DNA of 64,000 nt from NCBI GenBank assembly GCA_943357175.1, contig CALRGE010000008.1, positions 1 through 64,000 of the forward strand. The letters are read 5' to 3'. This document shows, one piece after another, positions 30,555 to 34,553 of this stretch. The stretch comes from Candidatus Peribacteria bacterium. Lineage in GTDB: Bacteria > Patescibacteriota > Gracilibacteria > UBA1369 > 2-02-FULL-48-14. The stretch's first letter is position 1; every line of letters begins with the position of its first letter. Below the pieces are notes generated by a model. That model saw nothing but the letters and a program-made list of their open reading frames with translations. It was not told the DNA's origin and did no database searches. The translations under genes were made by a program, and so were the position numbers.

Positions 30555-31523
30555 TCAGAATTCTCCAATTAAAACCTGCGATGAGTGCCACTGGAATTCT
30601 TTGATCAGCTTCTTATTGCCATGTTGCATAACCAAACCCGAATAGCTTGGAAGATTACTCGAGTTGAGTCTTGTAAAAGCTCTACCTACTGCTCTTTTAT
30701 TCAACTTTCTTCCTTGTGGGTAAATTACCACACCGAGAAATTTAATTCCGTGTCTAGCCTTCACTATGATGTTGTTTTTGGAGTGGAGGGTGAGTTTTAA
30801 TTTAGTAGTTAAAAACTTGTCTACTAAAATTCTGATTTTCTCAAGATGAGCATGATCTTTTTCTATGATTATAAAGTCATCGCCGTAACGCATGTAAGCT
30901 TGAGGTTTGATTACATGTTTAGCATATCTATCAAGCTCGTTGAGATATATATTTGAGAATATCTGACTTGTGAGATTACCTATCGGTATTCCCGTTCCCG
31001 GTATTTTAGAAAAACTAAAAATAACATTCTTTAACAGTGCTATCGTCTACGACGATAGCACTCGCCTCATGATAATATTCAATAAAATTTCGTGATTTAC
31101 ACTATCAAAAAATTTTTTAATATCCGCACGCCACACAAAACTTCCAGGATAAGAATTTAAAAAAGTTTGAGCTCGATTTATACCTTCAATCAAACCTTTA
31201 TCTTCGCGACAAGACCAAACATCGTAAATAAAAGTTTTGTCGAAAATACCTACTAAATAATCATATAAAAGCCTGTGAACAACTCTGTCACGAATGCCGG
31301 CGACGCAAATTTCACGTTTTTTATTGTCGGAAACTGTGAAGCTTTGGTAACCGCCGTGGCGGTAATTATTGGAGTTCAAATTTTTAAACAAAAGAAACAA
31401 ATTCTTCTCGAGATAATATTGGAACTGATTCAATTCACGGGAAATACTTTTTCCTTTTCTATACTCAAACCAACTTTTCCAAATATTACTTAAGCTCAAA
31501 TCTATGGAGGAAATTTCTATCAT
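30555..31523 (-). pseudogene. DGR reverse transcriptase interrupted by one in-frame TAG
   Basis: One frame runs from ATG at 31523 to the stop at 30555 (323 codons) with a single internal TAG at 31049-31047 (codon 159). All RT landmarks are in this frame: SNIWKSWFEYRKGK and NYRHGGYQSF at the start; RDRVVHRLLYDYL; the catalytic-Asp motif RADIKKFFDSVNHEIL; then, after the TAG, GIPIGNLTSQIFSNIYLNELD and the active site YMRYGDD. The IGNLTSQ motif, in place of QGxxxSP, is the DGR RT signature. Spacing between motifs across the TAG is normal, so this is a nonsense codon rather than a frameshift. The RT would copy TR RNA with random bases opposite adenine. The start overlaps avd head to head by 20 nt. 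Confidence 0.9.
31037..31061. repeat. Perfect 25-nt palindrome spanning the RT stop codon
   Basis: GTGCTATCGTC - TAC - GACGATAGCAC, 11-bp perfect arms and a 3-nt loop. The RT TAG (31047-31049 complement) lies at the arm/loop junction. It sits in the segment between RT motif A and the GIPIGNLTSQ motif. Confidence 0.9.
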
Positions 31524-31848
31524 AAATAAATCTTACGAACTTTATAAAGAAATGGCAATTGCACAAAAACATCTAAAGAAAGCTGCAAGAAATTCACTTG
31601 GAATAAGTTCGGAAAACAGCATTTTAGAATTTATTGAATGTGTAATAATGGCGAAAAATGCTCCCAAACCACAAAAGGGCATATATTTAATCAAGGCAGG
31701 TGCATATTTGGAAGTTTTAATTTTAAAATTGAGATTATTGCTTGAGTTGAAAGAAATGAATGAAACCCGCATTTTCCAAATGCAGGCCAAAGCCGCCGAG
31801 ATTGGAAGAATGCTGGGCGGCTGGCTTAAATCTATACAAAGCTTGTAA
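31504..31848 (+). CDS. avd: DGR accessory variability determinant (Avd)
   Basis: The 114-residue four-helix-bundle protein ends in the hallmark EIGRMLGGWLKS. Upstream helices are typical of Avd (AIAQKHLKKAARNSLG; ECVIMAKNAPKPQKGIYLIKAGAYLEVLILKLRLLLEL). Avd forms a pentamer that binds the RT and TR RNA and is needed for mutagenic reverse transcription. Here it lies on the strand opposite RT, TR and target: its first 20 nt overlap the RT start, and its stop lies 1 nt from the TR. Transcription of TR into RT would therefore produce RNA antisense to avd. Confidence 0.9.
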   Translation: MEEISIINKSYELYKEMAIAQKHLKKAARNSLGISSENSILEFIECVIMAKNAPKPQKGIYLIKAGAYLEVLILKLRLLLELKEMNETRIFQMQAKAAEIGRMLGGWLKSIQSL

Positions 31849-31849
31849 A

Positions 31850-31969
31850 CCTTTAGCAGACCCCGAACGCCACGATTGTCGTTCTCATTGTTCTCATTGT
31901 TCGCATTGTCATTGTTCACGTTGGAATTCTGATTGTTCGGATTGAAGTTCGAAACGCGAGCGTTACCGA
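31850..31969 (-). repeat. DGR template repeat (TR)
   Basis: This 120-bp copy of the target 3' end aligns without gaps to VR at a constant offset of 399 bp. In the coding (minus) sense it is adenine-rich, mostly AAC/AAT codons that would read as runs of Asn. By hand count it has about 40 adenines, 26 of which differ in VR; no other base differs. The G/C-rich 3' part (CGTGGCGTTCGGGGTCTGC) is identical in both copies, as expected of the initiation-of-mutagenic-homology end. Confidence 0.96.
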
Positions 31970-32237
31970 ACCACATTTTGATGAGATTTATCCGTTTCAT
32001 TCACAGTCGCAACTGCAAACTAATTATTTTCAGCCCAATTAAGAGCTAAATCTCGCTCAAACCTAAGGGTTTATTCTTTGCTTGCTCCTCCATGGATATT
32101 TTAGAGCAATGTACGGTAGCTTACGCTGAGGCAAGTTGCTATTCACCGCTACAGCGATTTTTTCAAATTTTAAGGATAAAGTAAAGACCACGCTTGCGCG
32201 TGGCCTGAAAGTTTAAGAAAAATTTAAGGTTCAAATA
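31970..32237. other. Intergenic DGR spacer between TR and target gene
   Basis: This 268-bp stretch has no convincing gene. It should contain the TR promoter on the minus strand, but I find no clear -35/-10 pair. An ATG at about 32000 opens a minus-strand frame that reads through the TR; it has no codon structure expected of a gene apart from the TR itself. The only notable structure is the GC-rich hairpin at 32188-32203. Confidence 0.5.
32188..32203. other. GC-rich hairpin downstream of VR
   Basis: CCACGC - TTGC - GCGTGG: a 6-bp perfect stem with a 4-nt loop, 45 nt beyond the VR end and 34 nt beyond the target stop. On the minus strand it is followed by TCTTTACTTT, so it may be a terminator of the target gene. 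A stem with a tetraloop 3' of VR is also the form of the DGR target-recognition hairpin known from the Bordetella phage DGR, though that one lies much closer to VR. Confidence 0.55.
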
Positions 32238-32930
32238 CTAAGCTTTTGCCCTTAGCAGACCCCGAACGCCACGACCGCCGTACCCACTGTACTCATAGAG
32301 CGCAAGGACACTGAACACGTCGGAATTCAGATTGACCGGATCGAAGACCGAAACGCGAGCGAAACCGACGTTTGCATCATTTTCTCCGTTGTCAAGCCAG
32401 CTTGATCTGTATGTTAGTTTGTCTTCAGATCTTACAAGTGGTTCTCCTGTAAATGCTTCAAACATCAATTCTTCTTCACTCTTTTCGTATGGTTCTTTGT
32501 ATGGGAAGAGATCTAGTCCAATATCTTTTGCCGCTTTTCTTGCGGCTGAGTAAGTTTTTCCGGGTAGTATAGGCGTAAGACCTCCGTTTGAGAAAAGGAT
32601 GTTTCCATTCTTATCTGCTCCGAACATAATTGGACCTTTAGGTATTGCTTCCACTTGTTTTAGAAGGGCTCCATCGTTAGCAAGCATTGCTTCTTGTACT
32701 CTCTTCCAGTCCGTTCTTGATTTACTCTCGGCACTCCACTTGTTGTACATCTCTGCGAATTTTGTGAGGCGTGGGTCGACTTCCACTGTATCCATAATAT
32801 CCCCAACTTTTTCTTTAGTTACTCCTTGAAGCTTGGAAAGAATTTCATTAGACAACTCAGGAGTTAAAAGTCCACCTTTATCTGCCGCTTCTATTGCTGC
32901 TATTAATCTCTCTTTATTTGTATCTGGCAT
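32238..32930 (-). CDS. DGR target protein with hypervariable C-terminus
   Basis: The 230-residue target has no signal peptide or membrane helix. Residues 1-60 are acidic and helical; residues 95-230 look like a compact domain (GPIMFGADKNGNILFSNGG, then YRSSWLDNGEN). The diversified part VGFARVSVFDPVN...GYGGRGVRGLLRAKA has the usual DGR target end, in which fixed scaffold residues alternate with variable ones. C-type-lectin-fold proteins are the common DGR targets; that fold is plausible but not proven here. It probably binds diverse ligands in or outside the cell. A near-consensus promoter drives it. Confidence 0.9.
   Translation of the reverse strand: MPDTNKERLIAAIEAADKGGLLTPELSNEILSKLQGVTKEKVGDIMDTVEVDPRLTKFAEMYNKWSAESKSRTDWKRVQEAMLANDGALLKQVEAIPKGPIMFGADKNGNILFSNGGLTPILPGKTYSAARKAAKDIGLDLFPYKEPYEKSEEELMFEAFTGEPLVRSEDKLTYRSSWLDNGENDANVGFARVSVFDPVNLNSDVFSVLALYEYSGYGGRGVRGLLRAKA
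32249..32368 (-). repeat. DGR variable repeat (VR)
   Basis: This 120-bp segment covers residues about 188-228 of the 230-residue target. Compared with TR it has 26 substitutions in 19 codons, all at TR adenines: 13 A to T, 11 A to G, 2 A to C (hand count, coding sense). Codons such as AAC become TTC, GTC, GAC, CTC or TAC. Flanks beyond both ends lose similarity at once, so the repeat boundaries are sharp. Confidence 0.96.
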
Positions 32931-33030: not shown

Positions 33031-33291
33031 TCAATAAACTTGATTGTGTGTACCTAGATCAAGCATAAGCACCAAAGTATATTCCTGATGTTCTTCAAAA
33101 ATTATTCTCAAGTCACCGGTTACAGAGATGGCACTTTGCCCGAGCATTGAGCCCTTTAGTGGGTGATTTCTTAGTATTTGACTTAGTGGATTTTCTTGAA
33201 AAATCTGAATTATATTTAAAACTTTTGCTCGATGTTTGTTGTCCAATTTCAAGAATGCCTTTTGAAACTTTTTAGTATAATTAATCTGCAT
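33031..33291 (-). CDS. YafQ/RelE-type mRNA interferase toxin
   Basis: The 86-residue product starts INYTKKFQKAFLKLDNKHRAKVLNIIQIF and ends RIIFEEHQEYTLVLMLDLGTHNQVY; the NHPLKG...SISVTGDLRIIF arrangement is typical of YafQ-like toxins with the catalytic His region (GTHNQVY). It would cleave mRNA on the ribosome. It overlaps the antitoxin by 11 nt. Confidence 0.88.
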   Translation of the reverse strand: MQINYTKKFQKAFLKLDNKHRAKVLNIIQIFQENPLSQILRNHPLKGSMLGQSAISVTGDLRIIFEEHQEYTLVLMLDLGTHNQVY

Positions 33292-33571
33292 TTTTTGCTA
33301 ATTTCCTTAAGTAATCGATTGCTTCATTGCCTTCAAAAGGGCCATCGAGGTTTACCCCATGCCTAGCTTCTTCAGAAGCCTCAAGAATTTCTCTTTCCTG
33401 TTTAATTGTTAAACCATTCTCGGTAAGTAAAGAGAAGGGAATGCCCTGAGTAATAATAACTTGATTTAGATAAACCTTAATTGCACTACTCATGTCCAAG
33501 CCAATTTTATCAAAAACTTTTTTTGCATCTTTTTTTGTTTTTTCATCAATGCGGATTTGTAGAGTAGTCAT
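33281..33571 (-). CDS. DinJ/RelB-type antitoxin
   Basis: The 96-residue protein has the ribbon-helix-helix TLQIRIDEKTKKDAKKVFDKIGLDMSSAIKVYLNQV, the DinJ signature including the IPF segment (ITQGIPFSL). The C-terminal part binds the toxin. It is first in the operon, with a promoter just upstream; it likely autorepresses with the toxin as co-repressor. Confidence 0.9.
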   Translation of the reverse strand: MTTLQIRIDEKTKKDAKKVFDKIGLDMSSAIKVYLNQVIITQGIPFSLLTENGLTIKQEREILEASEEARHGVNLDGPFEGNEAIDYLRKLAKNAD

Positions 33572-33595
33572 TTTTTGTAGTTATTTAACTCTCTA

Positions 33596-33625
33596 AGTTT
33601 ACACTAGGCGTGGTGACAGTGTCAA
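33596..33625 (-). promoter_or_regulatory. Promoter of the DinJ/YafQ-type operon
   Basis: TTGACA (33625-33620), an 18-bp spacer, TAAACT (33601-33596), in the gap between the Fic stop and the antitoxin start. AGTGT-CAAT-ACACT near the -35 box is a possible operator. Confidence 0.6.
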
Positions 33626-33629
33626 TACA

Positions 33630-34553
33630 CTATTCTTTTTTGGAGTACCTCTCAACAGCTTCTTTTGTAGTCAGCCAATTCTTTTTTAGTTTAATGGCTT
33701 CAAGTTTTCCATCTTTTGCGAGCTTTCCAAGATAGGCTTGTGAATAAGAGCAGTACTTGCTTGCCTGTGCTAAAGTAATCCAATTTTCTTTTTCTTTAGA
33801 TGGAGTTAGTACATCCAAATAGATATTTAAAGATTTCAAAACCGCTTGTGATATAAAAGTTGCAAGTGCTTTGTAATTTCCTTGGTCAGCGGCGCTGAGA
33901 ACACGATAGTATTTTTGTCTGTCATTTTTTTGAATTATAACCAAAGGAAAGCCGTGTGCCATTAAAAAAACGTTCATTAATAAACGCCCGACCCTGCCAT
34001 TTCCATCCTGGAAAGGATGTATATGAACAAACTTATGATGTAGTTCAGTGGCAAAATCGACAATGTACATTTTTGAATAATTTTTCCTGCACCAAGTTAT
34101 AAGTTCCAGCATTTTATGTGGAACTTCCAATGCAGAAGGTGGAACATGATCAGTTCCGGTTATAAAAACATCAACTTTTCTGTACTGTCCTGCAATATTT
34201 TTGTCGATATCTTGAATAACCAGCGAGTGTAAACTTCTGATTAAATGTTCAGATATGGTATTTGAATTTCCGTGCTCAACTAAATCATAAAGATAGGTCA
34301 ATGCCTCCTGGTGGTTCTTTGCTTCCAAGTGATCTTTCAATGGCTTGCCCTTAACGGTAATGCCCTGTTGAATCACCCAATAAGTTTCTTTTAGAGTTAA
34401 AGTATTTCCTTCAATCGCATTAGAATGATATATCATTTCAATCTCAAAACGTTCCTTGAGTTTTAGTAAAAGAGTAGATGAAATTGGCCTCAATTTATTG
34501 AGTTGCTTAAGACGCTCTTCTAGGAGTTTCTTTATTTTTTCATTTATGTACAT
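33630..34553 (-). CDS. Fic family protein with N-terminal inhibitory motif and C-terminal HTH
   Basis: This 307-residue protein carries the catalytic HIHPFQDGNGRVGRLL (near residue 190), the complete HxFx(D/E)GNGRxxR motif that transfers AMP to target hydroxyls. The N-terminal helix holds HSNAIEGN, the inhibitory (S/T)xxxE(G/N) motif, so activity is probably self-restrained. The last 55 residues (ITLAQASKYCSYSQAYLGKLAKDGKLEAIKLKKNWLTT) form an excisionase/MerR-like HTH. A 9-bp inverted repeat overlaps its promoter, which suggests it represses itself. Confidence 0.9.
   Translation of the reverse strand: MYINEKIKKLLEERLKQLNKLRPISSTLLLKLKERFEIEMIYHSNAIEGNTLTLKETYWVIQQGITVKGKPLKDHLEAKNHQEALTYLYDLVEHGNSNTISEHLIRSLHSLVIQDIDKNIAGQYRKVDVFITGTDHVPPSALEVPHKMLELITWCRKNYSKMYIVDFATELHHKFVHIHPFQDGNGRVGRLLMNVFLMAHGFPLVIIQKNDRQKYYRVLSAADQGNYKALATFISQAVLKSLNIYLDVLTPSKEKENWITLAQASKYCSYSQAYLGKLAKDGKLEAIKLKKNWLTTKEAVERYSKKE

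Follow-up and report, generated by a model that had tools for sequence, protein, structure and literature searches.

Candidate on/off switches in the reverse transcriptase genes of diversity-generating retroelements from Patescibacteria and DPANN

The DNA analyzed here, a stretch of 64,000 nucleotides to which we refer as the window, stems from the genome of a member of the Patescibacteria and carries the components of a diversity-generating retroelement (DGR; Table 1). Along the minus strand, the gene for a target protein with its variable repeat (VR) is followed by the template repeat (TR) and then by the gene for the reverse transcriptase (RT). As judged from its sequence, the cassette has the standard DGR make-up of target, TR, antisense avd and RT, and a further clean VR exists in trans. 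The best PDB match of the RT is 8ub7, the RT of a DGR ribonucleoprotein (sequence E=1e-67; fold TM-score 0.86), and its named close relatives are mainly from Candidatus Peregrinibacteria. Avd was recognized through PF22296 bAvd (7.5e-11, above the cut-off) and phrog_3206 (2e-14), while its match to NF033474 (1.8e-13) lies below the cut-off of that model. The antisense position of avd between TR and RT, which sets this element apart from the described DGRs, recurs in 121 of the 130 relatives for which we could locate both TR and avd; because of it, an RNA joining TR to RT would be complementary to avd. The target protein belongs to no family in Pfam, NCBIfam or PHROGs; its structural model is of low confidence, and a fold search with that model yielded no match. 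Next to the target gene, the window also encodes a toxin-antitoxin pair of the RelB/YafQ type as well as a protein with a Fic domain (window 33031-34553).

Table 1. Coordinates of the DGR and of the sites within its RT gene, numbered from the first nucleotide of the window
Feature	Position	Strand	Remark
DGR RT gene	30555..31523	-	RVT_1; 322 codons, one in-frame TAG; catalytic YGDD 3' of the stop
Window equivalent of the relatives' repeat hot spot 2	30993..31019	-	loop before motif B; repeat absent here
Perfect hairpin AGTGCTATCGTC-GTA-GACGATAGCACT	31036..31062	-	12-bp arms, 3-nt loop, 27 bp, TAG at the center
In-frame TAG, RT codon 159	31047..31049	-	ordinary stop here
Window equivalent of the relatives' repeat hot spot 1	31140..31154	-	loop before motif A; repeat absent here
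avd accessory gene	31504..31848	+	antisense to TR and RT, placed between TR and RT
TR	31850..31969	-	also serves as template for the VR in trans (contig C3)
VR in cis	32249..32368	-	26/26 differences from TR at TR adenines
DGR target protein, 230 aa, C-terminal VR	32238..32930	-	four paralogs elsewhere in the genome

A preliminary description of this DNA had claimed a gapless 120-bp TR/VR pair at an offset of 399 bp, with 26 differences that all fall on TR adenines of the minus (coding) strand. Computational alignment of the two segments bore this out in every detail: 13 of the changes are A->T, 11 are A->G and 2 are A->C, and there are 0 differences at the remaining 80, non-adenine positions of the cis alignment. 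With 40 adenines among the 120 positions, the restriction of all 26 differences to A has a P of ~1.5e-16 (hypergeometric). When TR and VR are translated, 19 codons differ, the number that had been given for the diversified codons. The target gene family comprises five paralogous genes in this genome, including the window copy; the four others are located at G000:C3:1079-1191, C5:51200-51703, C2:104527-104937 and C10:32495-32905. The paralog on C3, another contig, contains the second VR, in trans, in which 21 of the 22 changes affect A and the other is T->C (P=1.5e-11 for the adenine bias). Within the paralog on C5 we found a third VR copy, old and eroded (17 A and 13 non-A mismatches to TR, plus a deletion), while those on C2 and C10 are devoid of a recognizable VR. 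The assignment of the locus as a DGR is therefore supported by a DGR-type RT, by Avd, and by adenine-only VRs in cis and in trans.

Since the VR pattern is adenine-only, it implies that retrohoming was recent. To this extent the claim of the preliminary description that the target is being diversified and the element was very recently active can be upheld, but the sole RT of the genome carries an in-frame TAG. The window RT is the only RVT_1 protein in the genome, and no second, intact RT is encoded there. Apart from the TAG, its frame and catalytic motifs are intact, and a model of the read-through protein attained a pLDDT of 92. Reassignment of this codon was ruled out, as TAG terminates 11 of the 43 long frames of the window. 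By ordinary decoding, the in-frame TAG at residue 159 would thus preclude a full-length RT in the sequenced cell. We regard it as very unlikely that the TAG is read through, or that an internal start serves the second half, so that the RT is made whole or as two pieces. Such an explanation would fit the intact frame downstream of the TAG and the fact that the RTs of relatives are split at nearby positions. However, the regular use of TAG as a stop in the window speaks against read-through, and no in-frame ATG, GTG or TTG is present before codon 212 (the Met before RYGDD), with motif B being lost from a product that starts there. Synthesis in two pieces is further opposed by the relatives, among which we saw no two-ORF arrangement with a conserved second start; instead, their RT halves share the repeats as a zone of overlap, in frames that vary.

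The TAG is located at the center of a perfect hairpin that, like the stop itself, went unreported in the preliminary description, whose TR/VR observation and DGR call otherwise stand. Inversion of its loop from GTA to TAC converts TCG TCG TAG ACG into TCG TCT ACG ACG (SS*T into SSTT); the number of stops in the RT frame thereby drops from 1 to 0, and residue 159 changes from a stop to threonine. The flipped SSTT resembles the RIKDSTTLNLL of relatives. Elsewhere in the 64-kb window there is no perfect hairpin whose arms measure >=11 and whose loop measures <=10; such hairpins were present in 0 of 300 shuffles of the RT, and the expectation is 0.0016 per RT gene. Its predicted folding energy is -12.4 kcal/mol (z -4.9), and it is positioned between motifs A and B. 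The hairpin sequence is unique in the genome, which ruled out a repeated element or a recombinase site, and it had 0 matches in viral contigs. An assembly or sequencing artefact, whereby the consensus would show the loop wrongly oriented or in a minority state, appears quite unlikely to us. The assembly is of the metagenome type and represents a single copy, but a 3-nt inversion is atypical of sequencing error, and a mixed loop would itself indicate flipping.

The starting clue to a wider phenomenon was the finding that many homologous RTs of the order are split in two. At most of the breaks, repeats read THTHTH, SLSLSL, RERERE, GGG or PPP, and the two halves overlap there in differing frames. 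For a systematic survey, we gathered 211 distinct RT genes, which represent Patescibacteria, DPANN and a small number of outgroups, and built a profile HMM; a tract was defined as a non-A/T simple sequence repeat, flanking ORFs of >=250 aa served as controls, and the family sample comprised one genome per species. Tracts were present in 118 of the 211 RTs, compared to 1 of 414 neighboring control ORFs (P=3e-67), and a histogram of tract positions within 6 kb is almost empty outside the RT sites. For the remaining ~44% of the RTs, no switch was detected. The repeat units are G, C, GA, CA, CT, GT, AGCA, ATTG, CCTGT, CTGTC and TGTCC, and tract lengths vary between related genomes. In a sample drawn evenly from the phylum of the window, 82 of 117 RTs contained a tract; an archaeal phylum contributed 13 split RTs with a tract at or near the second internal site described below, some of which overlap with the first set, and a Bacteroidota control sample had tracts in 0 of 31 RT loci. 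On a FastTree phylogeny, tracts were gained or lost at least 41 times, a count that corrects only partly for kinship among the genes.

Most tracts (76 of 118) are found at the start of the RT gene, and most of the others at two internal sites, at model positions ~118-135 (site 1) and ~168-190 (site 2). In the structural model, site 1 is a loop that connects helix 111-124 to the strand of motif A, and a second loop, which follows helix 158-168 ahead of motif B, represents site 2; both are surface loops beside motif A and, according to this model, could be places where an ON-state RT carries the repeat peptide. Two archaeal RTs (L297 and L309) bear C-terminal tracts of G11 and G12 (model position ~310), possibly a fourth repeat site. 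Another archaeal RT, L336 (G803:C16), is broken by a MITE-like insert with long terminal inverted repeats.

A gain or loss of one or two repeat units reopens a single frame in 33 of the 34 frameshifted genes; 17 and 16 of them need opposite shifts, one is left unrestored, and 8 further genes are in frame. We left the N-terminal tracts without an ON or OFF state as the true start codon is uncertain; part of these 76 tracts may act in the leader, the start codon possibly lying downstream. The dN/dS values downstream of the tract are mostly 0.06-0.15 and resemble those upstream, although they are rough estimates with dS often near saturation. Judged by these values, the out-of-frame RT halves are under purifying selection. 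An automatic search recovered adenine-specific TR/VR pairs at 160 of the 211 loci, most of the frameshifted loci included. Because the frames are restorable, the out-of-frame halves conserved and the TR/VR differences restricted to adenine, these RTs appear to be switched rather than decayed. A split of the RT into two conserved subunits was ruled out by the in-frame relatives, the diversity of the repeats at the break, and the lack of a common second start.

These observations also bear on a different view of the repeats, namely that the split RTs rely on programmed frameshifting, or that the repeats are harmless inserts and not switches. The internal repeats do reside in surface loops, which would tolerate inserts. 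Frameshift sites, however, share a motif, whereas the repeat units vary widely, from G to CCTGT; moreover, all three frames are seen, and tract lengths differ among related genomes. Harmless inserts, in turn, would neither be limited to RT genes, as the single tract among the control ORFs attests, nor gather at the RT start. We consider both variants highly improbable. Instead, the DGRs of CPR and DPANN very probably are phase-variable through the repeats in their RT genes.

No simple repeat tract was found in the window RT, including at both hot spots of its relatives. Hairpins are enriched in the RT set (27 in 211 RTs versus 8.25 expected), but only that of the window opens a closed frame when it is flipped. 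Hairpin flips as a general mechanism were accordingly rejected. Long perfect hairpins or palindromes also occur within the RTs L208, L212, L179 (codon ~177) and L127 (codons 120 and 237); three of these are at repeat site 2, and their inversion leaves the frame unclosed. Since the window hairpin is situated just 5' of site 2, and is the sole one of the 27 whose flip removes a stop, we read it as an alternative switch; the role that repeats would play in the relatives is in the window most likely taken by the hairpin. The chances that it is a reversible switch, presently in the OFF state, seem to us about even.

The main rival to a reversible hairpin switch is a one-off knockout, in which one short-range template switch during replication overwrote the left arm with a copy of the right arm (GACGATAGCACT), so that the hairpin and the TAG arose together. 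The RT would then be dead, decay of the DGR would have begun, and the clean VR would merely mean that the event was recent. The left arm encodes VLSS where relatives have I-x-D-x, so that a usually conserved Asp is replaced by Ser, while the right arm still encodes the relative-like TIAL, in line with this scenario. Template switching at hairpins is a recognized source of mutation (PMC10710837), and DGR RTs with nonsense or frameshift mutations next to intact TR/VR pairs were reported in 2012 as inactivated elements (PMC3521204). Furthermore, three DGR RTs of this order (L155 of G005, L154 of G034 and L258 of G065:C15), one of them in the family of the window, are truncated or degraded and demonstrate that true RT decay also occurs there. 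On the other side, the remainder of the 322-codon RT is intact and yields the confident read-through model, and switch elements in the RT gene are the rule across the family. Two other RTs carry plain nonsense codons without a hairpin; among the three stop-bearing RTs, only the stop of the window sits in a hairpin that can reopen the frame. We view the knockout as a genuine possibility, but not as the favored one.

In our model of a reversible switch, the DGR is host-encoded in a Patescibacteria (Peregrinibacteria-type) genome. Its error-prone RT, together with Avd, would copy the TR RNA and introduce mutations at A, and the copies would enter the VRs of paralogous targets in cis and in trans. 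Hypermutable DNA within or at the start of the RT gene would toggle the enzyme on and off at random; targets would be diversified in bursts, with the OFF state preserving successful variants. Most switch-bearing relatives would achieve this through slippage at simple sequence repeats, whereas in the window the 3-nt loop of the 27-bp hairpin would flip by template switching during replication, the TAG of the sequenced copy representing the OFF state. The anatomy of the DGR, the stop, the hairpin with the effect of its inversion, and the repeats of the family with their positions, frames and signs of selection can be read from the sequences; we infer that repeat lengths vary within populations, that OFF cells cease to diversify their targets, and that the window hairpin flips. 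The comprehensive reading, in which the DGR RTs of CPR and DPANN are contingency loci governed by repeat slippage or, as here, by a hairpin-loop flip, may be right or wrong with roughly equal probability.

The type element of DGRs is that of Bordetella phage BPP-1. Intragenic invertible DNA is likewise known; it consists of an inverted repeat inside a gene, whose inversion alters the coding state. The window shares with it the intragenic inverted repeat and a coding state that changes upon inversion. However, its 3-nt spacer is too short for a site-specific recombinase, which makes replication template switching the plausible agent. RT groups of CPR and DPANN DGRs are discussed in PMC8144416 and PMC10907252. 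The window resembles such DGRs in its adenine-only TR/VR pair, the fold and sequence of its RT, Avd, the C-terminal VR and the targets in trans, but differs from those described in that the RT bears a putative hypermutable switch, a hairpin in the window and repeats in its relatives. Repeat-driven contingency loci have been described, for example, in Neisseria, Haemophilus and Campylobacter (PMC11868660). Like these, the RT genes of the relatives have tracts with units of one, two, four or five nucleotides, lying within the coding sequence or where the gene begins, and changes in unit number toggle the frame. In contrast, the switched gene here is a mutator enzyme and not a surface structure or a methyltransferase; the repeats are found in CPR and DPANN, and the window has a hairpin in place of a repeat. 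With the inactivated elements of PMC3521204, the window has the closed RT frame and the intact TR/VR pair in common; its stop, however, is placed in a flippable hairpin, and the frameshifts of its relatives in revertible repeats.

Taken singly, DGRs, phase variation through repeats and hairpins with template switching are all known. Our literature search uncovered no link between a DGR RT and phase variation, an earlier mention in surveys or preprints beyond its reach remaining possible, and in the available excerpts of PMC8144416, PMC10907252 and PMC10053308 DGR RTs are not tied to it. PMC8144416 tests an alternation of diversification with purifying selection, and its available part names no switch. 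On/off switching of the DGR RT thus seems to be an undescribed control of targeted mutation.

The question of how DGRs avoid scrambling a functional protein without end has no settled answer, and a phase-variable RT, if true, would supply a switch for this purpose. One hypermutable switch would then gate another, with bursts of receptor diversification followed by fixation. It would also explain the many 'split' or 'truncated' RTs in CPR and DPANN assemblies, and pipelines that require a full-length RT could overlook or drop real DGRs. Finally, it predicts ON and OFF subpopulations that would be countable from existing metagenome reads.
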